Below are positions 1,762 to 28,958 of a DNA stretch of 64,000 nt, piece by piece. Positions within the stretch are counted from its first letter, which is position 1, and each line of letters opens with the position of its first letter. This DNA comes from Cyclobacteriaceae bacterium (GTDB lineage Bacteria; Bacteroidota; Bacteroidia; Cytophagales; Cyclobacteriaceae): contig JAEUTZ010000015.1 of assembly GCA_016787725.1 (NCBI GenBank), positions 62,001 to 126,000 on the forward strand, given 5' to 3'. Below the pieces are notes generated by a model, which did no database searches, was not told where the DNA came from, and saw only the letters and a program-made list of their open reading frames with translations. The translations under genes and the position numbers were made by a program.

Positions 1762-4233
1762 TTGAAACGACTTCGGAAAATCCTGCTCTACTTCTTCCTT
1801 TCGATAGCGGTGATCATTGGCGGAATTATGATCTCTGTTTTTTTATTCAAAGACAGAATCATTCGTCAGTTTGTAAATGAAGCGAATAAGCACCTGAATA
1901 CACCTGTTAAAATCGGGAAAATCGATATTTCGACTTTCTCTGATTTCCCTAACCTGGCCATTGTATTTACGGACGTCTATGTTGAAGACAGCCATCCGGG
2001 AAATTATCCTTTACTAACTGCGGAGCGATTGGCCTTTACGCTCAACCCCATTGAGTTGTGGAAGGGAAATTATTCCATCCGGGGCCTGACGGTAACCGAC
2101 AGTGAAACCAATTTTAAAGTGAATGCAGCCGGGAAAGGGAATTTTATCATTCTCAAAGACACTCCGGGAGAAGGCGGTACGGTTCGCTTTGATTTAAGAA
2201 ATGTTCACCTGCTTAAAACCGTTGTCAGCTACCAGGACCAACAAGTGCGCCAACACCATGTCTTTAACAGTGATAAACTCACGGCCTCAATTGCGGTCAA
2301 TGGTGATCAGTATAAAATTGCAGCGCAAGGCGATGTTATCACAGAACAAATTAGCATCGGTCAAACCCTTTTTCTTACCAACAAAACGTTTGCAGTAGAT
2401 GCCAATTTGGATTACGATGATGAAAAAAAAGAGGTGATCTTTCACTCCTCGGTGCTAAAAACAGGCACTTCACAATTTGACATTACCGGCAACTACCTCT
2501 TCAAAGAAAAAAACCTGATCGACCTAAAGGCAGAAGGGAAAGACACCGACATCCAAACCTTGCTGTCGCTATTGCCGGAGGAAACCAGTAAAAAACTTAA
2601 ACAATATCGAAGCGAGGGGGATGTATTCTTCAATCTCACCCTGAAAGGCGAAATCAGCGATCGAAAAAGTCCTTACATTTCAGCTGCCTTTGGCTGTAAC
2701 AAGGCTACCCTGTACCATCCCGACTACCAATCCAGAATCTCAAAAGCGAATCTGAACGGATCCTTTGCAAGTCCTTCCCTCACCAATTTCTCGGATGCAA
2801 AACTTTTTCTAAGGGATATAAAGGGTGAACTCAATGGCAAAATATTCACAGCCAATCTTAGCATTAGCGAATTTGATGATCCCTATGTCACGTTTGACTT
2901 TAACGGTGAACTAGATGCCGCCTCCATAAATAATTTCTATCCCATTGCAGAGGTGAAAGAACTGAGTGGGACTTTGCATGCCGATATTTTGTTTGAGGGT
3001 CGTATCTCGCTGCTTCGAAAAAAAGCAACCGCGCAGCAAGTTTCAACGAGTGGAGCCATCACCATGAAGGAAATTAATTTTGTTTACGGAAAGCAAAACA
3101 TTCATTTCAAAGACATTGGAGGGGCACTGCATTTCAACAACAATGATCTGGCATTAAGCAATGTCAAAGGTTTTTTTGAGAATAGTGACTTTCGTTTGAA
3201 TGGGTTCTTTAAAAACATCATCACGTTCCTGCTTTTTGAAAACCAACCCATTGGCATTGAAACAGATTTGAAATCGGATTTTCTGGATCTGGATCAATTA
3301 TTTGCCATCGGGTTTGGACAGGAAGAATCAAAAGAATATCAGTTTAGTATTTCACCCGATTTACAAATGAACTTTAATTGCGATGTAAAACGTATGAAGT
3401 ACAGGCGATTTGAGCCGCAGAATATCAAAGGTGATTTGCTGGTGAAAAATCAAGTGGCGGTTTCGCGAAACATTACCATGCGAACAATGGGCGGCCAATT
3501 GACGCTGAATGGCATTGTAGATGCAAAAAATCCTAAAGCCATCGATGTGATCTCTTCCTTCAAACTAAATGGTATTCATTTGGATAGCGTTTTCTATGTA
3601 TTTGAAAATTTCTATCAGGATTTCATTATCGACAAGCATTTGAAAGGACAAGCCTTTGCGGATGTTGAATTGGAAATGGTATTGAATGAAAAACTCAATT
3701 TGATTCCCTCCACCTTAATTGCCGACATCAGTGCCACCCTACGGAATGGCGAACTCAACAACTTTGAGCCGTTAAAAAAATTGAATAAGTACCTGGATGA
3801 TGAAAGTCTGAATCATATGCGTTTTGCTGATCTTAAGAATGAGATTCACATCGAGAAGCAAACTATCTATTTACCGCAAATGGAAATCAAGAGTAATGCT
3901 ACCACCATTCAATTAAGCGGTACCCACACGTTTGATCAACACATTGATTACCGGGTGGTGGCACCTTTTCGCAACAAGAAGAAAATCGATCCCGATGAAG
4001 CTTTTGGGGCCGTGGAGGATGACGGTACGGGTACTCCAAAGATTTTTTTAAAAATTACCGGCACCACCGATCAGTATGAAGTGAGTCTGGACAAAGATGC
4101 CGTCAAGAAAAAAATTGCCTCTGATTTCAAAAAAGAAGTTCAGGAATTGAAAGACGCCTTTAAATTGAAAGGGCAAAAAAAGAAAAAAGAGTTGGAATTA
4201 TCAGAGGAAGAATTTGATTGGGATAATAACTGA
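1762..4233 (+). CDS. AsmA-like outer-membrane biogenesis protein
   Basis: An 823-residue protein with an N-terminal membrane helix (about residues 7-30) followed by a long beta-rich body with the AsmA opening pattern (short helix, then NTPVKIGKIDIS and repeating beta-strand motifs) and a C-terminal AsmA-like region (about 560-770). The tail is rich in Lys and Glu. The AsmA/TamB/YhdP superfamily forms periplasmic bridges thought to carry phospholipid to the outer membrane; the same role is inferred here. The start is TTG, chosen because the membrane helix begins right after it. The stop codon abuts the convergent mazG stop with no gap. Confidence 0.8.
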   Translation: MKRLRKILLYFFLSIAVIIGGIMISVFLFKDRIIRQFVNEANKHLNTPVKIGKIDISTFSDFPNLAIVFTDVYVEDSHPGNYPLLTAERLAFTLNPIELWKGNYSIRGLTVTDSETNFKVNAAGKGNFIILKDTPGEGGTVRFDLRNVHLLKTVVSYQDQQVRQHHVFNSDKLTASIAVNGDQYKIAAQGDVITEQISIGQTLFLTNKTFAVDANLDYDDEKKEVIFHSSVLKTGTSQFDITGNYLFKEKNLIDLKAEGKDTDIQTLLSLLPEETSKKLKQYRSEGDVFFNLTLKGEISDRKSPYISAAFGCNKATLYHPDYQSRISKANLNGSFASPSLTNFSDAKLFLRDIKGELNGKIFTANLSISEFDDPYVTFDFNGELDAASINNFYPIAEVKELSGTLHADILFEGRISLLRKKATAQQVSTSGAITMKEINFVYGKQNIHFKDIGGALHFNNNDLALSNVKGFFENSDFRLNGFFKNIITFLLFENQPIGIETDLKSDFLDLDQLFAIGFGQEESKEYQFSISPDLQMNFNCDVKRMKYRRFEPQNIKGDLLVKNQVAVSRNITMRTMGGQLTLNGIVDAKNPKAIDVISSFKLNGIHLDSVFYVFENFYQDFIIDKHLKGQAFADVELEMVLNEKLNLIPSTLIADISATLRNGELNNFEPLKKLNKYLDDESLNHMRFADLKNEIHIEKQTIYLPQMEIKSNATTIQLSGTHTFDQHIDYRVVAPFRNKKKIDPDEAFGAVEDDGTGTPKIFLKITGTTDQYEVSLDKDAVKKKIASDFKKEVQELKDAFKLKGQKKKKELELSEEEFDWDNN

Positions 4234-5049
4234 TCAAAGCGTTTTTGCGCGATTCCAGTACGCGTCCATTTCAGCCAGTGTCATCTCCCCCATCTTTTTT
4301 CCCTCTTTCGCAGATTCCGATTCCAAATATTGAAACCGCTTAATGAATTTTTTATTGGTTCGTTCAAGGGCTTCCTCCGGGTCGATGTTGATAAACCGTG
4401 CGTAGTTCACCAGTGAAAACAACAAATCACCAAACTCGGCCATGGCCTTCTCTTTGTCAACCGCATCATTGGATTCGGCATTGAATTCCTTTTTAAACTC
4501 CCGCATCTCCTCTTCCACCTTTTCCCAAACCTGCTCCTTTCGCTCCCAATCAAAGCCAACGCCTCGTGCCTTGTCTTGAATGCGAATGGCCTTCACGAGG
4601 GCCGGTAATGACTTGGGCACGCCTTCCAAGACCGACTTATTTCCCGTTCTTAGCTTGATCTTCTCCCAATTCTCCTTCACGGTCTGTTCATCAGTGGCTA
4701 TCACATCACCATACACATGCGGATGGCGCTCTATCAGCTTATCACAAATCGAGTTGAGAACATCGGCTACATCAAATAATCCGGCTTCAGCAGCAATGCG
4801 TGCATAAAAGACATTGTGCAGCATTAAGTCGCCTAACTCCTTTTTCACTTCGCTATAATTCTTTTCCAGAATAGCATCGGAAAGCTCATACGTTTCTTCA
4901 ATGGTTAGATGCCGCAGGGTCTCCATCGTTTGCTTTTTATCCCAGGGGCAATTTTCACGCAATTCATTCATGACCGTCAACAACCGATCAAAGGCTTGCA
5001 GCTTGGCTTCGCGGTGGGGGTCCGGAGCAGAAAGAGGTGTCTTTTTCAT
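4234..5049 (-). CDS. mazG: Nucleoside triphosphate pyrophosphohydrolase MazG
   Basis: A 271-residue protein with two MazG all-alpha domains, the usual size of the housekeeping enzyme. The first domain has CPWDKKQT and the metal-binding pattern E-E-x-x-E (TIEETYELSDAI) followed by E-x-G-D-L (KKELGDLMLHNV); the second repeats it as EFGDLLFSLVNYARF. It hydrolyses (d)NTPs to monophosphate and pyrophosphate and is thought to clean damaged nucleotides from the pool. It is convergent with the AsmA-like gene, with stops directly abutting. Confidence 0.95.
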   Translation of the reverse strand: MKKTPLSAPDPHREAKLQAFDRLLTVMNELRENCPWDKKQTMETLRHLTIEETYELSDAILEKNYSEVKKELGDLMLHNVFYARIAAEAGLFDVADVLNSICDKLIERHPHVYGDVIATDEQTVKENWEKIKLRTGNKSVLEGVPKSLPALVKAIRIQDKARGVGFDWERKEQVWEKVEEEMREFKKEFNAESNDAVDKEKAMAEFGDLLFSLVNYARFINIDPEEALERTNKKFIKRFQYLESESAKEGKKMGEMTLAEMDAYWNRAKTL

Positions 5050-5133
5050 AACCAGGAAACTTAATAATAAGGGTTATCTGTTGTAATATTGTGTCGTAAA
5101 AGTCGCAATTAGGGAACGCAATTTGTATTCGCC

Positions 5134-5376
5134 ATGGCTGTTTTTCTATTAACCCTCGGAATATTTGGGCTCTTCTTTCTGCTGATGTCAGTTCGTTTGC
5201 TTTTTGTAAAGAATGGTGAGTTTAGGGGTACTTGCGCAACACAAAGTCCGTTTCTTGCAAAAGAAGGGATTACCTGTGGATACTGTGGTAAAGTTATTGG
5301 CGAAGGTGAGGCTTGCGGGGATCCCGATAAAGCTAATGCAGGAGCCGAACTGCCCGCGATTAACAAGAAGCCATAA
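5134..5376 (+). CDS. Four-cysteine mini membrane protein (NqrM/DUF539-like)
   Basis: An 80-residue protein with one N-terminal transmembrane helix (about residues 2-24), then a short cytoplasmic or periplasmic segment with four cysteines in the order G-T-C, C-x-x-C-G and A-C-G, and a low-complexity end. Size, layout and cysteine spacing resemble NqrM (DUF539), which delivers iron to Na+-translocating NADH:quinone reductase. No nqr genes lie in the window, so this is a resemblance and not a proven assignment. It sits 53 bases upstream of glmM on the same strand. Confidence 0.7.
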   Translation: MAVFLLTLGIFGLFFLLMSVRLLFVKNGEFRGTCATQSPFLAKEGITCGYCGKVIGEGEACGDPDKANAGAELPAINKKP

Positions 5377-5396
5377 TTCGCCTCCCTCAATTTTAT

Positions 5397-5404
5397 TAGA
5401 TTTG
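5397..5404 (+). promoter_or_regulatory. Candidate -7 box for glmM
   Basis: TAGATTTG matches TAnnTTTG 25 bases before the GTG start at 5430. The -33 region is poor. Confidence 0.45.
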
Positions 5405-5429
5405 CGGTCACAAAATTCAATTTCACTCT

Positions 5430-6818
5430 GTGACGTTAATTAAATCTATTTCGGGTATCCGAGGAACTATCGGAGGTGCACCCGGAGATGCCCTGACACC
5501 CGTTGATACGGTAAAATTTGCTGCTGCTTTCGGAACCTGGATCAAAGCCCGAAAGGGAAAGAAAGTGGTGATCGGACGCGATGCTCGGCCTTCCGGTGAA
5601 ATGGTCAGCCAATTAGTGGCCGCTACGCTACAGGGTTTGGGATTGCATGTTGTGGATCTGGGCTTATCCACCACCCCCACCGTTGAACTGGCCGTTACAT
5701 TGGAAAAAGCAGGGGGTGGCATCATCCTGACTGCCAGTCATAATCCAGTGCAGTGGAATGCACTGAAACTTCTGAATGAAAAAGGAGAGTTCATTTCAGC
5801 CGAAGATGGGGCCGTGGTGTTGCAACTCGCTCAAAAAGAAAGTTTCAATTTTGCCCCGGTTGAATTACTAGGAAGTTATCTGAAAAATGATACCTATATC
5901 CAAAAACACATTCAACTGATTCTTAAATATAAGCTGGTAGATGTAAAGGCCATACGAAATTCAAAATTCAAAATTGCCGTAGACGCTGTAAACTCTACAG
6001 GCGGCATTGCTGTACCCAGGTTATTGAAAGCGTTGGGTGTAAAGAATGTGGTTGAACTTTACTGTGAGCCGAATGGAAAATTTCCACACAATCCTGAGCC
6101 CCTGCCGGAACATCTCAAAAAAATCTCCAGCGTTGTTAAAAAACAACGTTGTGATTTAGGAATCGTAGTCGACCCGGATGTAGACCGGCTGGCGTTGATT
6201 CAGGAAGACGGAAAACCTTTTGGAGAAGAATATACCCTGGTGGCCGTTGCCGATTACATCCTTCGCAAAAAGAAAGGCAATACCGTATCCAACCTCTCCT
6301 CCACCCGGGCCTTGCGCGATGTAACAGAACTACACAATGGACTTTACCATGCAGCGGCTGTGGGTGAAGTTAATGTGGTCAATAAAATGAAAGAAACGGG
6401 TGCCGTGATTGGTGGCGAAGGCAATGGCGGTGTAATTGTGCCAGATTTTCATTACGGCCGTGATGCCCTGATGGGAATTGCGCTTTTTCTCAGTCATCTC
6501 GCTAAATCAAAATTGAAAGCCTCTGAATTACGAAAAACCTATCCTGCCTATTTCATCTCTAAAAACAAAATTGAGTTAACCCCGCAGATCAACGTTGATG
6601 CCGTGTTGGAGAAAATAAAATCGAAATATGCGCATGAAAATATCAATACAACTGATGGGGTAAAAATTGACTTTGAAAAGGAAAAGGAATGGGTGCACTT
6701 GCGCAAGAGTAATACGGAACCCATCATTCGCATTTATGCCGAATCGGAAAACGAGCAGAAGGCAAATGAATTGGCCCAGCGTATTATCAACGACATCAAG
6801 GAAATCATTGGGCAATGA
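5430..6818 (+). CDS. glmM: Phosphoglucosamine mutase
   Basis: A 462-residue alpha-D-phosphohexomutase with all four domains: the active-site serine loop T-A-S103-H-N-P, the metal-binding loop D-P-D-V-D-R-L, the sugar-binding GEGNGGV loop and the C-terminal phosphate loop R-K-S-N-T-E-P. The GEGNGG and SNTEP forms point to phosphoglucosamine or phosphomannomutase specificity; glmM, making glucosamine-1-phosphate for UDP-GlcNAc, is the likely role, but some Bacteroidota paralogues are annotated only as phosphomutases. The start is GTG. The stop overlaps the cysteine desulfurase start (ATGA), so the two are co-translated. Confidence 0.85.
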   Translation: MTLIKSISGIRGTIGGAPGDALTPVDTVKFAAAFGTWIKARKGKKVVIGRDARPSGEMVSQLVAATLQGLGLHVVDLGLSTTPTVELAVTLEKAGGGIILTASHNPVQWNALKLLNEKGEFISAEDGAVVLQLAQKESFNFAPVELLGSYLKNDTYIQKHIQLILKYKLVDVKAIRNSKFKIAVDAVNSTGGIAVPRLLKALGVKNVVELYCEPNGKFPHNPEPLPEHLKKISSVVKKQRCDLGIVVDPDVDRLALIQEDGKPFGEEYTLVAVADYILRKKKGNTVSNLSSTRALRDVTELHNGLYHAAAVGEVNVVNKMKETGAVIGGEGNGGVIVPDFHYGRDALMGIALFLSHLAKSKLKASELRKTYPAYFISKNKIELTPQINVDAVLEKIKSKYAHENINTTDGVKIDFEKEKEWVHLRKSNTEPIIRIYAESENEQKANELAQRIINDIKEIIGQ

Positions 6819-17989: not shown

Positions 17990-18409
17990 CTACTCTGATT
18001 TGATGAGTTTGGTCAGGCGGCACACGTTTTTATCATCTCGCTTCAGGTATTCCACATCGTCCATGATGGCCTTTACCAGGCGAATCCCTAAGCCCCCCTT
18101 CCGTTTTTGATGGATCAGGTTATCCAGTTCGGGCTCATGAAACTGATTGATGTTAAACACCGAACCGTCATCAATAATTTCAAAAATGAATTTTCCCTTG
18201 GTGGGAATATCGATATGAAGTTCCAATAAATGATCGGGATTGCAATGATGGGCATGAATCATCAGGTTTGAGCACATCTCATCCAGGGCCAATACAATGG
18301 CGCTCATTTCAATCTCAGGAATATGCTGGTCTTTCAACGAGTTTCGTACAAACTCGCGAATCCCTTTCAGATTGCTGAGGCTACACCCTATGTTATACTG
18401 ATAATTCAT
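17990..18409 (-). CDS. RsbW/SpoIIAB-like anti-sigma serine kinase (HATPase)
   Basis: A 139-residue stand-alone GHKL ATPase domain. It has the N-box A-L-D-E-M-C-S-N, the G1 box I-D-D-G-S and the G2 box K-G-G-L-G-I-R-L-V-K. Proteins of this size are the serine kinases of partner-switching systems, which phosphorylate a STAS antagonist and hold a sigma factor or other target. It overlaps the STAS gene by 17 bases and is third in the SpoIIE-STAS-HATPase operon. The target is not encoded nearby. Confidence 0.9.
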   Translation of the reverse strand: MNYQYNIGCSLSNLKGIREFVRNSLKDQHIPEIEMSAIVLALDEMCSNLMIHAHHCNPDHLLELHIDIPTKGKFIFEIIDDGSVFNINQFHEPELDNLIHQKRKGGLGIRLVKAIMDDVEYLKRDDKNVCRLTKLIKSE

Positions 18410-18743
18410 CCGCTAAATTCTTTGCGTCTTGTTTGGTATTGCGTATGTGCAACAAATCCGCCAAGCCAAGTATTTGAAACGTATTCGCTACTTTCTCCTT
18501 CAACCCAAACAAAACAAGGGGTATATTTTTGTCCTTCATTTCTTCAATGTAGGACATAAACACGCCCAACCCGGCCGAAGAGATGTATTCCAAAGCACTG
18601 CAGTCCACCAGGATTTTTCTAAAACCCTCACCCACGCTTTTGGCAATGGCCAGGTCCAGTTCAATCGAAGAGCTGGCGTCAATTTCTCCAATGACTGAGA
18701 TGATATCCGCCCCATCTTCCTGCAGTCGCTTTATGTGAACCAT
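18393..18743 (-). CDS. STAS-domain anti-sigma factor antagonist (RsbV-like)
   Basis: A 116-residue single STAS domain. The motif I-S-S56-A-G-L-G-V-F places a serine (S56, with S55 beside it) at the position that the partner kinase phosphorylates in RsbV/SpoIIAA. Unphosphorylated, such proteins bind the kinase and free its target. It lies between the SpoIIE phosphatase (41-base gap) and the HATPase (17-base overlap), giving a complete switch of phosphatase, switch protein and kinase. Confidence 0.93.
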   Translation of the reverse strand: MVHIKRLQEDGADIISVIGEIDASSSIELDLAIAKSVGEGFRKILVDCSALEYISSAGLGVFMSYIEEMKDKNIPLVLFGLKEKVANTFQILGLADLLHIRNTKQDAKNLADELSV

Positions 18744-18784
18744 GTTTCAATGTGTTTAACGATTTATTTTTTTTATAGTTCTGT

Positions 18785-20848
18785 CTATTTAAACTTGATG
18801 GTCATGGATGTATAATCATCATTAATTTCTAATGATCCGGTGAATTCATGCAGCCGCTGGATAATGTGATTTTCTATTTCCTGGGAACTTTTTTCAGGAA
18901 CTTCCATAAGGGCAGCCGCCAGGCGGTCATAGTCAAATTCTTCGCCCCGGGCATTTTTTGCCTCGGTAATTCCATCGGTATAGAGTACCATGATATCCCC
19001 AGACTTATATCGAATTTCATTCGTCTCCAGCAGCTTGCAATAGTCGTGATTGCGCACCATGCCCAGGGCCGTACCACGGTCTTTGAGGAACTGGGCTTTG
19101 CCTGTCGCGGCCTCATAATACAATACCGGGCAATGGCCGGCCCGCGAATACCGGATCACCTTCTCTTGCGAGTCGACAATAAAATAGGTGGCCGAGATAA
19201 AAGACCCTCGCTCCAGGCAGAAACTCAGCGCCCGGTTAGCCCGATCCATAAATTCCTTTGGATCCAATTGCAATTGCGCCAGGCTGTGGAAAATTCCTTT
19301 CATCTGCGACATGTGAAACGCTGCCGTAGTTCCTTTTCCGGATACGTCCGCGATGATCAGCGCAACCTGATTCGCATTGATTCGCAGGGTATCAAAATAA
19401 TCACCCCCCACTTCATCGGCCGATTCGGCAAATGCGGAAATGTCAAAATCAGCATCCTTTTCTAAAGACGTAGGAAGTAAACTTTTCTGTACGTTTTTGG
19501 CAATTTTTAATTCCTCTTTATAGCGCTCTGTTTGAAAAGCCTCTTCCATTAACCGGAAGTTTTCGATGGAAATACCCGCCTGGTTCGCAAATGCAGAAAC
19601 TATGCGGGTCATCTCCTTATTAAATCCATCGGGAAGTTCTTTCAATAAAGCCAGTGTACCGATGGTTTCCCCTTTTACAATAATCGGAAAGGCAAGCAAG
19701 GAGCGGAACCGTGATCCTTTGAGGGAGGCCAGGTGCCGGGAAAGATTTTTAGTCCGGTCACTGCTTTGTTCCAACGCGCCTTTTACATTGTGGCTCTTTA
19801 AATGATCACGAATGTCTTTTGACTCCCGCTCCGTGATTTTATAGGTAAATAATTTATGGCCATCGTTCGCACTTTGTATCTCCAGCCAGGCGGCATCGGC
19901 AAACACTGAACTAACCGAACTTTCCAATAAAATATTATAAACACTCTCTTCATTCTGTTCCGTCTGGATGGATTGACTGATCCGTTGAAAGTTGACTACC
20001 TCCTCCAGCTTTTGCTCAAAAACGGAAGAGGTGGGAAGATTAAAGAGAATGACGAGAAACGAAAAAATGCTGTATACCAAGACAAATACAAGCAGGCACA
20101 AATTGAAAATGTGCCCGTTAAAGCCCATGAAAGTTGCCGATTCCGAACTGATGGAATCGGACAGGCGGGTTACCGTGTACATGAAATAGCCCAGGTAGAA
20201 GAAGGAAAGCAACAACAGCAGTAAGGAGGTCCACTTTTGCTTGAAGTTAAGGTAGGCAACCCAGCGCATGTTGGCCGAAAGCACAATGACGAGCAAGCCA
20301 ATAACTACCAGGATGATGGTGGTGGCGGTTTCCGGAATTGAAATCTGCAGGCTGTCATAGATCAGGACGGCAAACAAGCAAAGCTCAAACACCATCCAGG
20401 TGCGAATGAGCCATTTTGATTTCTGATATAAAATAAGTCGCTTCCAGGAAGTAAAAGCAGCCAATAAAAAGCTGATGAATAACGCCAGGTTGATCTGGTA
20501 AATGAAGTCGGTAAATAGAATGTTCGAAACCAGCTTGGTAGTTCCTAACAAAGACGCGCCTAAACGGAAGACCAGTGAAACAACTGTGGCAATCAACCCG
20601 GTGGCAAAAACCTTCCACAATAAATCAGTGAAGTTCAGGCTTTCATCGCGATCAACCCGATACTTGTAATAGTAGTAAAGACAAATGATAAAAAGATCAA
20701 GCGTAAGCCGGGGTAACCATTCAGGTACACCGGGGGGCAGCCCCTTCATTACACTGAAGAGCACCGTGATATCAGAAAACACCAATACGAACCACAGGAT
20801 AATGGACCCCAGGAAGGTTAGTCGTATGATGGCTTTTGATTTTAACAC
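18785..20848 (-). CDS. Membrane-bound SpoIIE-family serine phosphatase with GAF domain
   Basis: A 687-residue protein. The N-terminal 265 residues hold about eight transmembrane helices, followed by a coiled linker, a GAF domain (about 300-440) and a PP2C-type SpoIIE domain (about 460-685) with the metal ligands in V-G-G-D-Y-F-D, I-A-D-V-S-G-K-G, Y-T-D-G-I-T-E-A and N-D-D-Y-T. It would dephosphorylate the STAS protein encoded next, in response to a signal sensed in the membrane or GAF domain. It is the first gene of the partner-switching operon. Confidence 0.92.
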   Translation of the reverse strand: MLKSKAIIRLTFLGSIILWFVLVFSDITVLFSVMKGLPPGVPEWLPRLTLDLFIICLYYYYKYRVDRDESLNFTDLLWKVFATGLIATVVSLVFRLGASLLGTTKLVSNILFTDFIYQINLALFISFLLAAFTSWKRLILYQKSKWLIRTWMVFELCLFAVLIYDSLQISIPETATTIILVVIGLLVIVLSANMRWVAYLNFKQKWTSLLLLLLSFFYLGYFMYTVTRLSDSISSESATFMGFNGHIFNLCLLVFVLVYSIFSFLVILFNLPTSSVFEQKLEEVVNFQRISQSIQTEQNEESVYNILLESSVSSVFADAAWLEIQSANDGHKLFTYKITERESKDIRDHLKSHNVKGALEQSSDRTKNLSRHLASLKGSRFRSLLAFPIIVKGETIGTLALLKELPDGFNKEMTRIVSAFANQAGISIENFRLMEEAFQTERYKEELKIAKNVQKSLLPTSLEKDADFDISAFAESADEVGGDYFDTLRINANQVALIIADVSGKGTTAAFHMSQMKGIFHSLAQLQLDPKEFMDRANRALSFCLERGSFISATYFIVDSQEKVIRYSRAGHCPVLYYEAATGKAQFLKDRGTALGMVRNHDYCKLLETNEIRYKSGDIMVLYTDGITEAKNARGEEFDYDRLAAALMEVPEKSSQEIENHIIQRLHEFTGSLEINDDYTSMTIKFK

Positions 20849-23346: not shown

Positions 23347-24024
23347 ATGCCTACCCTTACTTTTAAGTTAAACCCGCTTCTCTATTTGCGCGATCCGCAA
23401 CATACGGAGCTCGGTCAAAAGATCATCAGCGCCAGCGTAACCCTCATTGATAAGCTTGGGTTTGAACAGTTCACTTTTAAAAAGCTTGCCGAGGAAATTG
23501 ATTCAACGGAGGCATCAATCTACCGCTATTTCGAAAACAAGCACCGCCTGTTGTTGTATCTCATTGGCTGGTATTGGAACTGGCTTGAGTACCGAATCGA
23601 TCTTTTTACCAGTGTGCTCACCGATCCTGTGGAAAAACTAAAAGCCTGTATTCGGGTAATTGCGGAGAAGAAAAAGTATGATACCAACTTTGACTTTATT
23701 GATGAAGAGGCCTTATATCGCATTGTCCTGGCCGAACTGGATAAGACGTACTTAACCAAGCAAGTTGATGTGGATAATAAAGACGGACTCTTCGGAGGGT
23801 TTAAATCTATCTGCAAGAAAATTGCTGAGTGGATCAAGGAAATCAATCCGGATTATCCTTATCCCCATGCGCTTATCAGTACGACCCTGCTCACCGCCAA
23901 GCAGCAAATCTTTTTTGCCGATCATTTACCTTCGCTTACGGATTTCAAAAAGGTTTCTGATCAAGCGGGAGCGTTAGAGGATTTCTTATTGAACCTGATA
24001 TTTCAATCCATTAAAAAGTCATAG
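23347..24024 (+). CDS. TetR/AcrR-family regulator of the exporter operon
   Basis: A 225-residue protein with an N-terminal TetR HTH (about residues 20-70: A-S-V-T-L-I-D-K-L-G-F-E-Q-F-T-F-K-K-L-A, then S-I-Y-R-Y-F-E-N-K) and an all-helical ligand domain. It lies 3 bases upstream of the ABC exporter gene on the same strand, so it is the first gene of a four-gene operon and probably controls it through the repeats at its own promoter. The ligand is unknown. Confidence 0.9.
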   Translation: MPTLTFKLNPLLYLRDPQHTELGQKIISASVTLIDKLGFEQFTFKKLAEEIDSTEASIYRYFENKHRLLLYLIGWYWNWLEYRIDLFTSVLTDPVEKLKACIRVIAEKKKYDTNFDFIDEEALYRIVLAELDKTYLTKQVDVDNKDGLFGGFKSICKKIAEWIKEINPDYPYPHALISTTLLTAKQQIFFADHLPSLTDFKKVSDQAGALEDFLLNLIFQSIKKS

Positions 24025-24027
24025 ACC

Positions 24028-26196
24028 GTGCTTACGAACGACCAAATATTACGATGCCTTCGTGAAGTTGCGTTTCACTTGAAACACGATTATTCCACCG
24101 ATGACCTGCATCACGTGGAAATCAACCAACGCACCTACTCCGATAACGAGGTAAGTGAATTTAAACGCGATCTGGTGGAAGCCGGAAACAAACTTCGGAT
24201 TCTCTTCCTGCCCTACCGTGTTGATGCAGAAACCTTGCAGGAGTTTCACGCAAGTCAATCGTCTCCCATCCTTGCTTTTTCAAAAGGCACCCGAATTAAT
24301 CCGGTACTGATCTTGCCCCCCCAACGAAAGAAGATTCCGGTTGTTTACATAGATAAAGCTTCGGATGTCTCGGCCGATGTAAGTTCCCTGAGTGAACTTA
24401 GTCTGGTAACCCAGGAAAACGGTGAGGTGGAGTTCTTTGCCATTTTCGCCTACGAAAGTCCGTTAACGATTGAAACCCTGGAAGGTGAAAAGCCGAGCCC
24501 GGTAACTCGATTGTTCCGCTTGTTGGCCACTGAAAAAAAAGAAATCTTTTATATTTTCTTCTACGCCATTATTGTCGGGTTAATCAGTCTGGTTATTCCG
24601 CTGGGTATTCAAACCACGGTGGAACTCATCTCAGGAGGTGTATTTTTCAGTTCCGTGTATGTGTTGATTACCCTGGTCATTCTGGGCGTTTTGTTGAGCG
24701 GTGGTTTACAGGTGGTTCAGATCAGTTTAGTGGAATTTCTGCAGCGTAGAATCTTTACGCGGGCTTCTCTTGAATTCGCCTTCCGTATCCCCAGAATCCG
24801 CATGGAAGCCATTCAACGGAATTATGCCCCCGAGTTAATCAACCGGTTTTTTGATGTGATCACCATCCAAAAGGGGTTACCAAAACTATTGATTGACTTA
24901 TCCTCGGCAGTTATTCAGATTTTGTTCGGCTTGCTGCTGATCTCGCTTTACCATCCGTTTTTTGTCTTCTTCGGATTTTTTTTGGTGGGTACATTGGTTT
25001 TGATTTTCTATTTAACCGGCCCCCGGGGGTTACATTCTTCCATTGAAGAATCTAAATATAAATACAAGGTAGCGCAGTGGCTTGAAGAACTAGCTCGCGC
25101 GTTGCATTCATTTAAGTTGGCAGGAAGTACCGATCTGCCATTGCGCAAAACAGATTACAATGTCAACAACTACTTAAAAAACAGGAAGGTTCACTTCCGA
25201 ACACTGGTAACACAATTTTCATTTATTGTTGTTTTCAAAGCACTCATTACAGGCGGATTGCTCATCATGGGCACCTTGCTGGTCGTTGACCGCCAAATCA
25301 CCCTGGGTCAGTTCGTGGCTTCTGAAATCGTCATCATCCTGATTTTGACTGCCGTTGAGAAAATAATCATGTACATGGATGTGGTCTACGATTTATTAAC
25401 CGCAGTGGATAAGGTGGCTCATATTACCGATCTTCCCATTGAAAAAGTTGGCGGGCTTGATTTTCCGGCTACGCTAACGCATGGATTCGATGTGCGCACC
25501 AAAAATCTGAAGTATAAATACTCAGCTTCAGGATACTACGCCCTGAAAGGTATTGATTTGGAAATAAAATCCGGTGAAACGATTTGTATTACCGGCCAGG
25601 GCAATTCCGGAAAAACCACTCTGATGAATATTCTCAGTGGACTGTATGCCGACTACGAAGGGGTGGTAACGATCAACAATTATTCATTGCGCGATTTGGA
25701 TCTTACCCACATGCGCGATCAGGTGGCCAAGAACATTTCCCAGGAAGATATCTTTGACGGAACATTGCTTGAGAATATTACCCTTGGAAGGTCCACCACT
25801 ACGATCCAGGATGCAATTGAAGCCATTAATCTTGTTGGGTTGAGCGATGAGGTAAACGCCTTGCCCAAAGGGTTGGATACACCCATTATCAGTGGCGGTA
25901 AAGGTCTTACCAAAACCATGATTCATAAAATTATTCTGGCACGCTGTATGGCCAAAAAGCCAAGGCTTCTGATTTTGAACGACTTCTTCGTTACCCTTGC
26001 CAAATCCGATAAACTGAACTTGCTGAGATGTGTTACGAATACCCAAAAAGCCTGCACCGTCATCATTGTATCCAAAGATCCCATCGTGATGTATGCGTGT
26101 GACCGGATAATTATCATGGAGGATGGCATGATCCGTGCCGAAGGCACGATGGAAGAATTAACCAAAATGGAAATTATCAAAGACATGATCCTGTAA
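24028..26196 (+). CDS. ABC exporter (permease-ATPase fusion) with degenerate ATPase motifs
   Basis: A 722-residue type I secretion-style half-transporter: a cytoplasmic N-terminal region (about 1-165, unrecognised, no C39 catalytic motif), a six-helix ABC membrane domain (about 170-460) and a nucleotide-binding domain (about 490-720). Walker A is intact (G523-x5-G-K529-T-T) and the Q-loop glutamine is present. The signature reads I-S-G-G-K-G rather than LSGGQ; Walker B reads L-L-I-L-N651-D652 rather than hhhhDE; the D-loop Asp is replaced by Ala; the H-loop His is K683. The protein can probably bind but not hydrolyse ATP in the usual way. The start is GTG. It is followed at 4 bases by an HlyD partner. 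Confidence 0.9.
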   Translation: MLTNDQILRCLREVAFHLKHDYSTDDLHHVEINQRTYSDNEVSEFKRDLVEAGNKLRILFLPYRVDAETLQEFHASQSSPILAFSKGTRINPVLILPPQRKKIPVVYIDKASDVSADVSSLSELSLVTQENGEVEFFAIFAYESPLTIETLEGEKPSPVTRLFRLLATEKKEIFYIFFYAIIVGLISLVIPLGIQTTVELISGGVFFSSVYVLITLVILGVLLSGGLQVVQISLVEFLQRRIFTRASLEFAFRIPRIRMEAIQRNYAPELINRFFDVITIQKGLPKLLIDLSSAVIQILFGLLLISLYHPFFVFFGFFLVGTLVLIFYLTGPRGLHSSIEESKYKYKVAQWLEELARALHSFKLAGSTDLPLRKTDYNVNNYLKNRKVHFRTLVTQFSFIVVFKALITGGLLIMGTLLVVDRQITLGQFVASEIVIILILTAVEKIIMYMDVVYDLLTAVDKVAHITDLPIEKVGGLDFPATLTHGFDVRTKNLKYKYSASGYYALKGIDLEIKSGETICITGQGNSGKTTLMNILSGLYADYEGVVTINNYSLRDLDLTHMRDQVAKNISQEDIFDGTLLENITLGRSTTTIQDAIEAINLVGLSDEVNALPKGLDTPIISGGKGLTKTMIHKIILARCMAKKPRLLILNDFFVTLAKSDKLNLLRCVTNTQKACTVIIVSKDPIVMYACDRIIIMEDGMIRAEGTMEELTKMEIIKDMIL

Positions 26197-26200
26197 GGCT

Positions 26201-27499
26201 ATGCTAAAAATCTCATCGAAGTCTGTTGAAAAAATGATGCCGCAGGATCGGCTCTATTCCTTGCGTTCTCTGGATACACCCATGGCCGGTAAACTCCTGG
26301 CCCGCTGGCTAATGGGTATTGGCCTCATCTTTTTAATAGTTCTTTTTCTTCCTTGGCAACAAAATATCCGGGGAAATGGCAAAGTAACTGCTTTAGATCC
26401 TTCCAACAGACCTCAAACAGTGGAAACAGCTATTCCCGGTCGGATTCAGAAATGGAATGTGCGCGAAGGCCAGTATGTAAACAAAGGTGATACCCTGGTG
26501 GTGTTAAGTGAGATCAAAGACAAGTTTTTTGATCCCAACCTCTTGTTGCGGTTGCGCGAGCAAATCAACGCCAAGACCAGCAGTTTAAGTTCCAAAAATC
26601 AAAAAGCGAAAGCGCTTCAGCGACAGATTGATGCGTTGCGGGAGGCCATGCAAAACAAAATCGATCAGTCGAAAGCGAAGTTGGAGGCTGAGCGTGTACG
26701 CTACCAGAATGCTGAGAACCAATTTCAACGGAACAAAAAACTTTACGAAGCGGGAAACATTCCGCTCACCAAGTTCCAGGACATTGAGTATAAGTTTCAA
26801 GGCGCAAAGGCGGATTTTGAAAATGCGAATATTGAACTGACGCGGGTAGAAGCCGAATACCTGGACAAAATCAGTAAAGCCGAATCCGATTTGAGCAATA
26901 CACTGGCAGAAATTTTTGATGCGGAAGGTGAGATCGCCAAATTGAAGAACGAGTACGCCAATATGCAAATTCGAAATGAACAATACCAGGTGATTGCCCC
27001 TCAGAGTGGCGTGGTGGTAAAAGCCCTTAAAGCCGGTATTGGTGAAACCATTAAAGAACAGGAAGCCGTGTGCACCATCATGCCCGATGCCCAGGACCTG
27101 GCGGTAGAAATGTATGTGAAGGCAATGGACGTACCGCTCATTGCTAAAGGGCGGAAAGTGCGCGTGATGTTTGATGGATGGCCTGCCATACAGTTTTCAG
27201 GTTGGCCAAGTGTTTCGGTAGGAACGTTTGGCGGGCAGGTTGAAGTCATTGACTTTGTGAATAGCAGACCGGGGGAGTTCCGCATTCTGGTGATTCCCGA
27301 TAAAACTGAAGAATCCTGGCCCAAACAATTGCGGATGGGTTCGGGCACAAAGGGTTGGGTGATGCTGAACGATGTACCTGTTTGGTTTGAAATCTGGCGT
27401 CAGCTGAATGGCTTCCCGGCTACGTTGTATGAGGAACCAGAAGATCCTTTGTACGAAATGAAGAAGGCCAACGAAGAAAAGAGTAAAGACACCGAATAA
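26201..27499 (+). CDS. HlyD-family membrane fusion protein
   Basis: A 432-residue periplasmic adaptor: one transmembrane helix (about 35-55), a split biotinyl-lipoyl-like domain (T-V-E-T-A-I-P-G-R-I-Q-K-W and I-A-P-Q-S-G-V-V-V-K), a long alpha-helical coiled-coil hairpin (about 115-265) and a beta-barrel domain. It joins the ABC exporter in the inner membrane to the TolC-like channel encoded next. Spacing to neighbours is 4 and 7 bases, so they are one operon. Confidence 0.93.
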   Translation: MLKISSKSVEKMMPQDRLYSLRSLDTPMAGKLLARWLMGIGLIFLIVLFLPWQQNIRGNGKVTALDPSNRPQTVETAIPGRIQKWNVREGQYVNKGDTLVVLSEIKDKFFDPNLLLRLREQINAKTSSLSSKNQKAKALQRQIDALREAMQNKIDQSKAKLEAERVRYQNAENQFQRNKKLYEAGNIPLTKFQDIEYKFQGAKADFENANIELTRVEAEYLDKISKAESDLSNTLAEIFDAEGEIAKLKNEYANMQIRNEQYQVIAPQSGVVVKALKAGIGETIKEQEAVCTIMPDAQDLAVEMYVKAMDVPLIAKGRKVRVMFDGWPAIQFSGWPSVSVGTFGGQVEVIDFVNSRPGEFRILVIPDKTEESWPKQLRMGSGTKGWVMLNDVPVWFEIWRQLNGFPATLYEEPEDPLYEMKKANEEKSKDTE

Positions 27500-27506
27500 G
27501 AGTGCC

Positions 27507-28958
27507 ATGAAGAAAGTTTTGCACATTCTTGTTGCGCTGTTAGCGGGCTTCGCGGGGATCAACGCCCAGGCCCAGCCAAGCATGGATTCGGTTTTTGTCC
27601 TGCCCGATTCGGTGACTGCTATGACGTTACAGCAGTTTTATGCTGCCATTCTGGAATATCACCCCGTGGTGAAGCAAGCTAAACTGCTGCCCGAAAATGC
27701 CCGGCAGGAAATTCGATTGGCGCGGGGTGCTTTTGATCCCAAACTGGAGGTGCTTATCGACCAGAAGGAATTCCAGGATAAGAGTTACTACAACTACACC
27801 GACATTTACTTATCATTTCCGAACCGAACGTTTATTGAGCCCAAAATTGGTCTCGAAGATAACAGTGGCGAGTTGCTGAACCCCGAGAGCATTATTCCTG
27901 GCAACCGACAATATTTTGCGGGTGTTAATATACCCATCGGACGCGGACTATTTACGGATGATCGCAGAACAGCAATCCGCCAGGCAGAATTATTTCAAAC
28001 TATTGCTGAGGCCGACCAAGTCAAACTCGTCAACAAAATTTTGTTAGCGGCTGCCAAAGATTATTGGAACTGGTACAATAGCTATTATAATTTCCGGTTG
28101 CTTACACGGGGTGCGGATATTGCCCGTGAAATTTTCAGCAGGGTGAAAATGAATGTGGCGTTGGGCGAACAGGCGGCCATCGACTCGGTGCAAGCTAAAA
28201 TCACGCTGCAAACCCGGTTGGTTGAGCGACAGGAAGCCTGGCTGGCTTTTCAAAATGCGGGTATTCATCTTTCCAATTACCTGTGGGATGATCAAAGTTA
28301 TCCGTTGGTGCTCACCTCGCGCGTAGCCCCTGTACTCGAAGTTTCCGATCTAAGCAGTCTCAATTTGCAGACATTGAGTGCGCTGGCAGACAGTGCGCGC
28401 GTCAATCATCCGGAACTCATAAAGCTTCGCACCAAGATCAATCAACTTGAATTGGAGCGGTCATTGGCCCGTGAGTTTCTCAAACCGCGTCTCGACCTGA
28501 GTTATTATTTGTTAAGTCAGCCATCGGCTGAGAAGGTGATTGATCCGGCTAATGATTACAAGTTTGGATTGGAGTTTTCGATGCCCATCTTGTTGCGCAA
28601 AGAGCGGTCGAAAGTGGCTATAACGAACCTGAAAATTCAGTCCACTGAATTTGAGCAAACTCAGGCCGAGCGGGAAATCCTAAACGGAATCACTTCCGTG
28701 TTTAATGATATCACCAATACCTCGATCATCATTGGCCAGCAAACGGATATGGTTAACCTATACGACCGGCTGTTACAGGCTGAATTCCTCAACCTTGAGA
28801 ACGGAGAAAGTGATTTGTTCAAGCTCAATATTCAACAGGAAAAATTGATTCAGGCCCAAAGCAAATTATTGAAGCTGAAATCCGAGTATGAAAAATTAAA
28901 GGCTGAGTTGTACTGGGCAGCCGGTATTCGCAACCTGAACTTTAACAATCAGGATTGA
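27507..28958 (+). CDS. TolC-family outer-membrane efflux protein
   Basis: A 483-residue protein with a signal peptide ending near I-N-A-Q-A-Q and the two repeated helical/strand segments of TolC proteins (about 45-270 and 285-475; L-A-R-G-A-F-D-P-K-L and Q-A-E-F-L-N-L-E-N-G-E-S are family-like). It forms the outer-membrane duct of the tripartite exporter and is the last gene of the TetR-ABC-HlyD-TolC operon. Confidence 0.92.
   Translation: MKKVLHILVALLAGFAGINAQAQPSMDSVFVLPDSVTAMTLQQFYAAILEYHPVVKQAKLLPENARQEIRLARGAFDPKLEVLIDQKEFQDKSYYNYTDIYLSFPNRTFIEPKIGLEDNSGELLNPESIIPGNRQYFAGVNIPIGRGLFTDDRRTAIRQAELFQTIAEADQVKLVNKILLAAAKDYWNWYNSYYNFRLLTRGADIAREIFSRVKMNVALGEQAAIDSVQAKITLQTRLVERQEAWLAFQNAGIHLSNYLWDDQSYPLVLTSRVAPVLEVSDLSSLNLQTLSALADSARVNHPELIKLRTKINQLELERSLAREFLKPRLDLSYYLLSQPSAEKVIDPANDYKFGLEFSMPILLRKERSKVAITNLKIQSTEFEQTQAEREILNGITSVFNDITNTSIIIGQQTDMVNLYDRLLQAEFLNLENGESDLFKLNIQQEKLIQAQSKLLKLKSEYEKLKAELYWAAGIRNLNFNNQD

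Follow-up and report, generated by a model that had tools for sequence, protein, structure and literature searches.

Canonical ATPase motifs are the rule in ATP-binding cassette (ABC) exporters, where the functions of the Walker, signature and switch motifs are well established, and heterodimeric exporters with one degenerate half, such as TM287/288, TmrAB and MsRv1273c/72c, are common. How an ATP-driven pump could lose its motor and still pump is an open question, with SbmA as one end point. In the available part of PMC13316013, SbmA-like transporters (SLiPTs) are described as proton driven and as proposed descendants of ABC transporters by loss of the nucleotide-binding domain; SbmA transports by means of a glutamate ladder, which is incomplete in YddA, from whose ancestor SbmA is proposed to derive. 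Here we describe a half-transporter encoded in a stretch of 64,000 nucleotides from a Cyclobacteriaceae bacterium (assembly GCA_016787725.1, contig JAEUTZ010000015.1, positions 62,001 to 126,000; the whole stretch is called the window), in a single open frame with a GTG start that belongs to a tight TetR-ABC-HlyD-TolC operon with intergenic gaps of 3, 4 and 7 bases. The loss of normal ATP hydrolysis in this protein is well supported, judging by its sequence, and something besides ATP hydrolysis probably powers or gates the exporter. Our preferred reading, held with moderate confidence, is that the inner-membrane component of this tripartite system no longer runs on ATP hydrolysis and that a homodimer is gated in another way, with the leftover domain still docked.

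In its fold, its HlyD and TolC partners and its possession of an N-terminal domain, the window protein resembles HlyB, PCAT1, ComA and NHLM ABC1, from which it differs in having lost active-site residues. Both domains of a type IV ABC exporter (ABC_membrane and ABC_tran) scored over their cut-offs, and the AlphaFold2 model (pLDDT of 83.6 and pTM of 0.70) comprises an N-terminal alpha/beta domain, an elbow helix, six transmembrane (TM) helices, coupling helices and an ATPase fold. Foldseek matched the model to PCAT1 (E value of 2.9e-36) and aligned it to HlyB (8dck_A) over 712 columns. In the sequence comparison that aligned ComA, five further PDB matches, at E values of 0.11 to 0.52, looked unrelated and were taken as chance. 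The N-terminal domain, the fold of which was not searched alone, had no Pfam match (C39 peptidase included) at E values up to 0.001, and it is missing in many family members of about 550 to 600 amino acids (aa). The adjoining HlyD adaptor and TolC channel are a feature of type I secretion, but the protein scored far under the cut-offs of the NCBIfam models for type I secretion and PCAT exporters (TIGR03796, 175 versus 853.3; TIGR03375, 174.5 versus 693.1) and, unlike in type I secretion, no cargo gene was recognised, although no search for one was made.

Active-site motifs across the family

A first-pass annotation of the letters had described a protein that keeps Walker A (G523 to T531) and the Q-loop, with N651-D652 in place of the expected Asp-Glu (DE) of Walker B, Ala at the D-loop Asp and K683 at the switch His. 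All of these readings were confirmed, the Q-loop Gln being Q572 and the D-loop residue A658. The signature, given there as ISGGKG, had been misplaced. That string covers aa 621 to 626, just upstream of the true signature position at 627 to 631, onto which LSGGQ aligns both in the P-glycoprotein alignment and in 60/60 control exporters; there the window protein reads LTKTM, so that the signature is lost too. Walker B DE, the switch His and LSGGQ, as found in ATP-hydrolysing exporters, are thus all absent. The changes are more than chance, since they are family-wide, whereas DE, His and LSGGQ were found by the same method in 60/60 control exporters from relatives.

To place the protein in its family, we searched 392 genomes of the phylum with a profile (E value up to 1e-60) and found matches in 99 of them; distant relatives may have been missed, because the profile was built from degenerate members. 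Three family-level searches (151, 101 and 100 genomes) were added. After removal of loci at contig ends (L313 and L314), copies of the window gene (L009 and L119) and 28 exact duplicates (346 to 318), the set held 318 aligned sequences (rows): 247 degenerate, 49 without an ATPase domain, 19 with both DE and the switch His (DE+His) and three partial ones left unclassified, which makes 315 classified. Where the family match was split over two open pieces (L028, L032, L058, L103 and L184), the best-scoring piece was used.

Scored at positions 651, 652 and 683, 110 orthologous loci (some from genomes fetched twice) mostly had ND or another non-DE pair in Walker B and Asn or Lys at the switch, and 247 of the 266 ATPase-bearing rows were degenerate. 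All 19 DE+His rows came from other classes of the phylum. Among the 235 degenerate rows from the window's class, the named records (Chryseotalea sanaruensis and a Fulvivirga among them) and the window itself, none had DE and His together, two had DE and five had His; the other classes contributed 12 further degenerate rows, five of which kept DE with Asn or Asp for His. LSGGQ was intact in 0/266 ATPase-bearing rows. Gly at 630 was found in 18/19 DE+His rows versus 9/247 degenerate ones. The Q-loop column, uncertain by one residue as a gap shifts the controls there, had Gln in 66/247 degenerate members. On this evidence the degenerate ATPase state is old and shared across the family, not decay, as the first-pass annotation had also held; the kept HlyD and TolC neighbours and the low ratio of nonsynonymous to synonymous substitutions (dN/dS) of the ATPase domain (about 0.09, see below) agree with this.

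Some members are of interest in their own right. L162 (positions 4013 to 5668, minus strand) has an ATPase domain that lacks even Walker A (PF00005 at 22.2 bits, below the cut-off) and seems to be a stage near domain loss. In L185 and L186, from other classes, Walker B reads DS and the switch is Phe, so that the active site has decayed there too, perhaps separately. The copy in L028 (G016:C4:206954-209080) is interrupted by one in-frame TGA. Plasmids of Persicobacter, Aureibacter and Riemerella carry family members, and downstream of the one in Aureibacter are genes annotated as HlyD and TolC. A single scan of viral contigs found no relative.

Conservation of the two domains was compared over 406 pairs from the loci of 30 relatives. 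Identity was 0.659 in the membrane domain versus 0.462 in the ATPase domain, which was ahead in 0.2% of the pairs. The same 58 genomes were searched for two control exporters, which matched in 39 and 54 of them; in each case the 30 best-matching genomes were fetched. The first control gave 0.686 and 0.707, and 58% of 434 pairs were more alike in the ATPase domain; the second gave 0.723 and 0.820, and 92% of 434 pairs were more alike there. The sets differ in make-up, the second being entirely from the window's genus, but are similar in overall divergence. The inversion is partly present already in DE+His rows, where the identities are 0.510 and 0.453 and 33% of 171 pairs are more alike in the ATPase domain. 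Median dN/dS, a counting estimate from 71 close and non-independent pairs, was 0.089 for the ATPase domain (highest, 0.266) and 0.043 for the membrane domain. By these measures, purifying selection still acts on the ATPase domain, though less strongly than on the membrane domain; the constraint is relaxed without being lifted. Canonical relatives and relaxed selection had both been named as signs that would speak for decay: the former do exist, but only in other classes, and the latter goes no further than this weakening.

Members without an ATPase domain

A hand count of the listings gave 83 places where the family match had no ATPase domain, of which 49 were fetched and analysed. These proteins of 330 to 352 aa (with script-chosen starts; L324 is without a start) stop at the expected start of the linker that would lead into an ATPase domain. 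In the seven scanned with Pfam at E values up to 0.001, ABC_membrane (PF00664) was the sole match, and the SbmA/BacA family gave none. The 49 rows span four family codes and 15 genus codes, and six genera contain both degenerate and ATPase-less forms among the fetched rows. Membrane-domain trees group them in a single clade (FastTree support of 1.0; SH-aLRT of 100 with 56 rows), which joins the degenerate L115 from Rhabdobacter roseus at a support of 98, while the DE+His rows and three degenerate rows make up a separate clade (support of 100). The single clade points to one loss of the domain followed by spread, and several independent losses were ruled out on the same grounds. One genome (G648; L329, L330 and L335) has the ATPase-less gene twice, both times with separate HlyD and TolC genes, plus one full-length copy.

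The HlyD and TolC neighbours are kept at nearly all loci. At loci with at least 1,300 bases downstream, an HlyD gene comes next on the same strand in 234/241 degenerate, 19/19 DE+His and 49/49 ATPase-less cases; with at least 3,000 bases, HlyD and TolC both follow in 98/100, 17/18 and 49/49, respectively. A TetR gene is nearby in 159/240 degenerate, 12/49 ATPase-less and 0/18 DE+His loci with 900 bases upstream, and this inconstancy indicates that regulation is not part of the core of the family.

PMC11267003 describes coupling helices as the part of the membrane domain that touches the ATPase domains. We compared conservation in 304 segments of twelve columns between degenerate and ATPase-less rows, with pairs matched on membrane-domain identity (0.58 in both sets; 1,055 and 3,165 pairs). 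The nine segments that lost most conservation in the ATPase-less rows all fell within 357 to 377, a region with coupling helix 2 and the first part of TM5; coupling helix 1 was not relaxed. Degenerate rows keep F362 (241/247), R357 (229/247) and K363 (226/247), while R357 survives in 9/49 ATPase-less rows. Both coupling helices are still predicted in the ATPase-less L149 (114 to 129 and 214 to 218), the second without conservation. Because coupling helix 2 is conserved in window-like proteins, their dead ATPase domain probably remains docked and still matters.

The TM helices carry several conserved acids. The E433 position, in TM6, is acidic (Glu or Asp) in 314/315 rows; that of E444 is so in 311/315, D455 is Asp or Glu in 310/315, and E236 is acidic in every row with a letter there. 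In the control families the commonest entries at 433, 444, 455 and 236 are non-acidic, a comparison that is weak because many controls are gapped at those columns. In ComA, E433 is matched by Asn and E444 by Glu. E269 and D276 are matched by acids in both controls and E341 in one. The likeness of these acids to the glutamate ladder of SbmA is suggestive; DE+His members already carry them, and proton coupling of the family exporter is a tentative reading.

ATPase-less members share with SbmA/BacA an ABC-exporter membrane domain without an ATPase domain, conserved TM acids and a proposed origin from a full ABC transporter. On the other hand, the sequence kin of the family are ComA, PCAT1 and NHLM-type exporters, and it has HlyD and TolC partners and surviving degenerate relatives. 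L149 is predicted to keep both coupling helices and the elbow helix, unlike SLiPTs, which lack them according to the text available from PMC13316013. SbmA was not among the 50 matches listed in the fold comparisons, which implies no exclusion. It is quite possible, if somewhat short of probable, that the exporter family, which is widespread in the phylum, switched from ATP-driven to ATP-independent work inside an HlyD-TolC system, separately from the origin of SbmA, with living stages represented by DE+His proteins, proteins with a dead but docked domain and proteins with no ATPase domain at all. A literature search found no comparable case of a non-ATP transporter derived from an ABC exporter inside such a system and no description of this exporter family, but at most general or neighbouring papers.

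Alternative explanations

Several observations weigh against a switch away from ATP. The outgroup branches are long (8.7 and 10 changes per column) and leave the root weak, so that the order of change, canonical first and degenerate later, is drawn mainly from the prevalence of canonical motifs among ABC exporters. The rows are not independent, since exact duplicates alone were removed and near-identical rows were kept. TM acids are about equally conserved in DE+His members and therefore do not represent a gain tied to ATPase loss; a joint gain of the acids with this loss was ruled out for that reason. Furthermore, another ABC-ATPase gene was found in 3/49 ATPase-less stretches (L149, L308 and L327), and an ATPase may be supplied in trans to these members. 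None of the three genes sits between those for the transporter, HlyD and TolC; those of L149 and L327 were best matched by general ATPase models, under cut-offs, and that of L308 is an ABC-F gene. Finally, position 652 is D or E in 203/247 degenerate rows and the switch position, 683, is Asn in 155/247, so that slow hydrolysis may persist.

This last point is the core of the strongest rival, in which the protein is still an ATPase with an unorthodox site, D652 serving as base or Mg ligand and Asn or Lys standing in for the switch His. Retention of the Walker A Lys in 243/247 degenerate rows and of the full G....GK[ST] in 194/247, the purifying selection on the domain and the conservation of coupling helix 2 all agree with it. 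We nevertheless regard it as unlikely, though deserving of some weight, given the complete lack of LSGGQ, the rarity of Gly630 in degenerate rows, a Mg-ligand Ser/Thr at 530 that is kept in 201/247 of them but missing in 46/247, the faster divergence of the domain and the existence of a clade without it. That clade is also the chief, if indirect, support for the proposal of the first-pass annotation that the complex is differently powered or ATP gated. The family might also have become a scaffold or gate for HlyD-TolC assembly that no longer transports, which would fit the persistence of HlyD and TolC genes where the ATPase domain is gone; we consider this improbable.

More doubtful still is a heterodimer in which the protein supplies the degenerate half and a gene elsewhere the canonical half-transporter. 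Such pairs are common, and the window protein resembles TM287/288, TmrAB and MsRv1273c/72c in its non-catalytic Walker B and switch residues and its retained Walker A. Seven other half-exporters of the genome were analysed (more may exist), and five of them carry LSGGQ together with DE and His. The remaining two, from L423 (C26:142600-149600), are the sole complementary pair: neighbouring, oppositely oriented halves, one with Walker B DD and LSGGQ and the other with DE, His and LSVGQ. They match each other, and from its motifs the pair seems to be a heterodimer of the usual kind, in which one site is degenerate. The L002 exporter family, the only candidate profiled for presence and absence across genomes bearing the window family, had no match at E values up to 1e-150 in four of them (G016, G035, G041 and G051). 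No second half-transporter is found in the window's operon and, unlike in the known heterodimers, the signature is lost in the same chain, which would leave both sites of a homodimer damaged. In the available parts of the sources, the degenerate half of MsRv1273c/72c contributes the signature that completes the consensus site (PMC12038006), and in TM287/288 the signature deviating from LSGGQ is that of the degenerate site (PMC5216877). The window protein departs from the usual heterodimer pattern, as it has no signature to lend to a partner, and a canonical partner half is unlikely; the earlier suggestion of pairing with a second half-transporter is not supported. Gene decay or a sequencing error was ruled out by the open frame, the family-wide residues and the low dN/dS.

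Other ABC genes near family members were considered as partners. Stand-alone ATPases of 237 to 254 aa lie upstream on the opposite strand at nine degenerate loci (L086, L089, L095, L097, L100, L104, L107, L108 and L111); the three scanned were nearest to DarD/MacB/LolD-type models, under cut-offs. These nine and the ABC genes by L149, L327 and L308 were judged to be probably unrelated to the operon. Fetched stretches also contained an MsbA-like exporter (L195) and unscanned ABC matches (L077 and L078). An upstream partner exporter in the DE+His lineage was discarded as well: the upstream genes at L175, L180, L185 and L186, which gave ATPase-domain matches, encode about 1,000 aa, and the three scanned are UvrA-like (L186 was unscanned).

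Proposed mechanism and locus features

Returning to an exporter that does not run on ATP hydrolysis, we infer non-hydrolytic gating together with an alternative power source. The ABC-fold transporter, the HlyD adaptor and the TolC channel would form an export system, here with a TetR regulator, in which the transporter would act as a homodimer with membrane domains that switch or gate without hydrolysis. The drive might come from another source, most plausibly the proton gradient via acids such as E433, or from the gradient of the cargo. The ATPase domain of the window protein probably still binds nucleotide by way of Walker A, which is intact, and probably rests against the coupling helices, where it would act as a gate or brake that needs no hydrolysis; in the ATPase-less clade it would be dispensable. 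Elsewhere in the window, an anti-sigma-like kinase, a STAS-like protein and a SpoIIE-type phosphatase are encoded in a row on the minus strand (17990 to 20848) and, from their translations only, look like a partner-switching module.

Features of the exporter operon, in window coordinates
Feature	Position	Strand	Evidence or remark
TetR-family regulator, operon gene 1	23347..24024	+	PF00440, 35.3 bits
Degenerate ABC exporter half-transporter, 722 aa, operon gene 2	24028..26196	+	PF00664, 52.1 bits, and PF00005, 60.9 bits, both over cut-off
HlyD-family periplasmic adaptor	26201..27499	+	PF13437, 45 bits
TolC-family (OEP) outer-membrane factor	27507..28958	+	PF02321, two stretches, 110.1 bits
N-terminal alpha/beta domain, aa 1-150, C39-like by arrangement only	24028..24477	+	Predicted secondary structure; no Pfam match
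Membrane domain, elbow helix and TM1-TM6, aa 158-467	24499..25428	+	More conserved than ATPase domain
Coupling helix 2 region, aa 358-369	25099..25134	+	Conserved in degenerate members, eroded in ATPase-less ones
E433 codon, TM6	25324..25326	+	Glu/Asp in nearly all rows (see text)
Nucleotide-binding domain, aa 489-713, fold intact	25492..26166	+	Pfam, AlphaFold2 model and Foldseek
Walker A GQGNSGKTT, aa 523-531, retained	25594..25620	+	
Signature position, LTKTM for LSGGQ, aa 627-631	25906..25920	+	Alignment to P-glycoprotein and control exporters
Walker B LLILND, aa 647-652	25966..25983	+	
Switch (H-loop) residue K683	26074..26076	+	

The DE+His, crippled and motorless forms belong to one gene family and share HlyD and TolC partners, and the crippled and motorless ones sometimes occur in one genus, so that the steps of motor loss become directly comparable. 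If the preferred reading is true, family genes of Bacteroidota annotated as "ABC transporter ATP-binding protein," for example in plasmid records, may not be ATPases.
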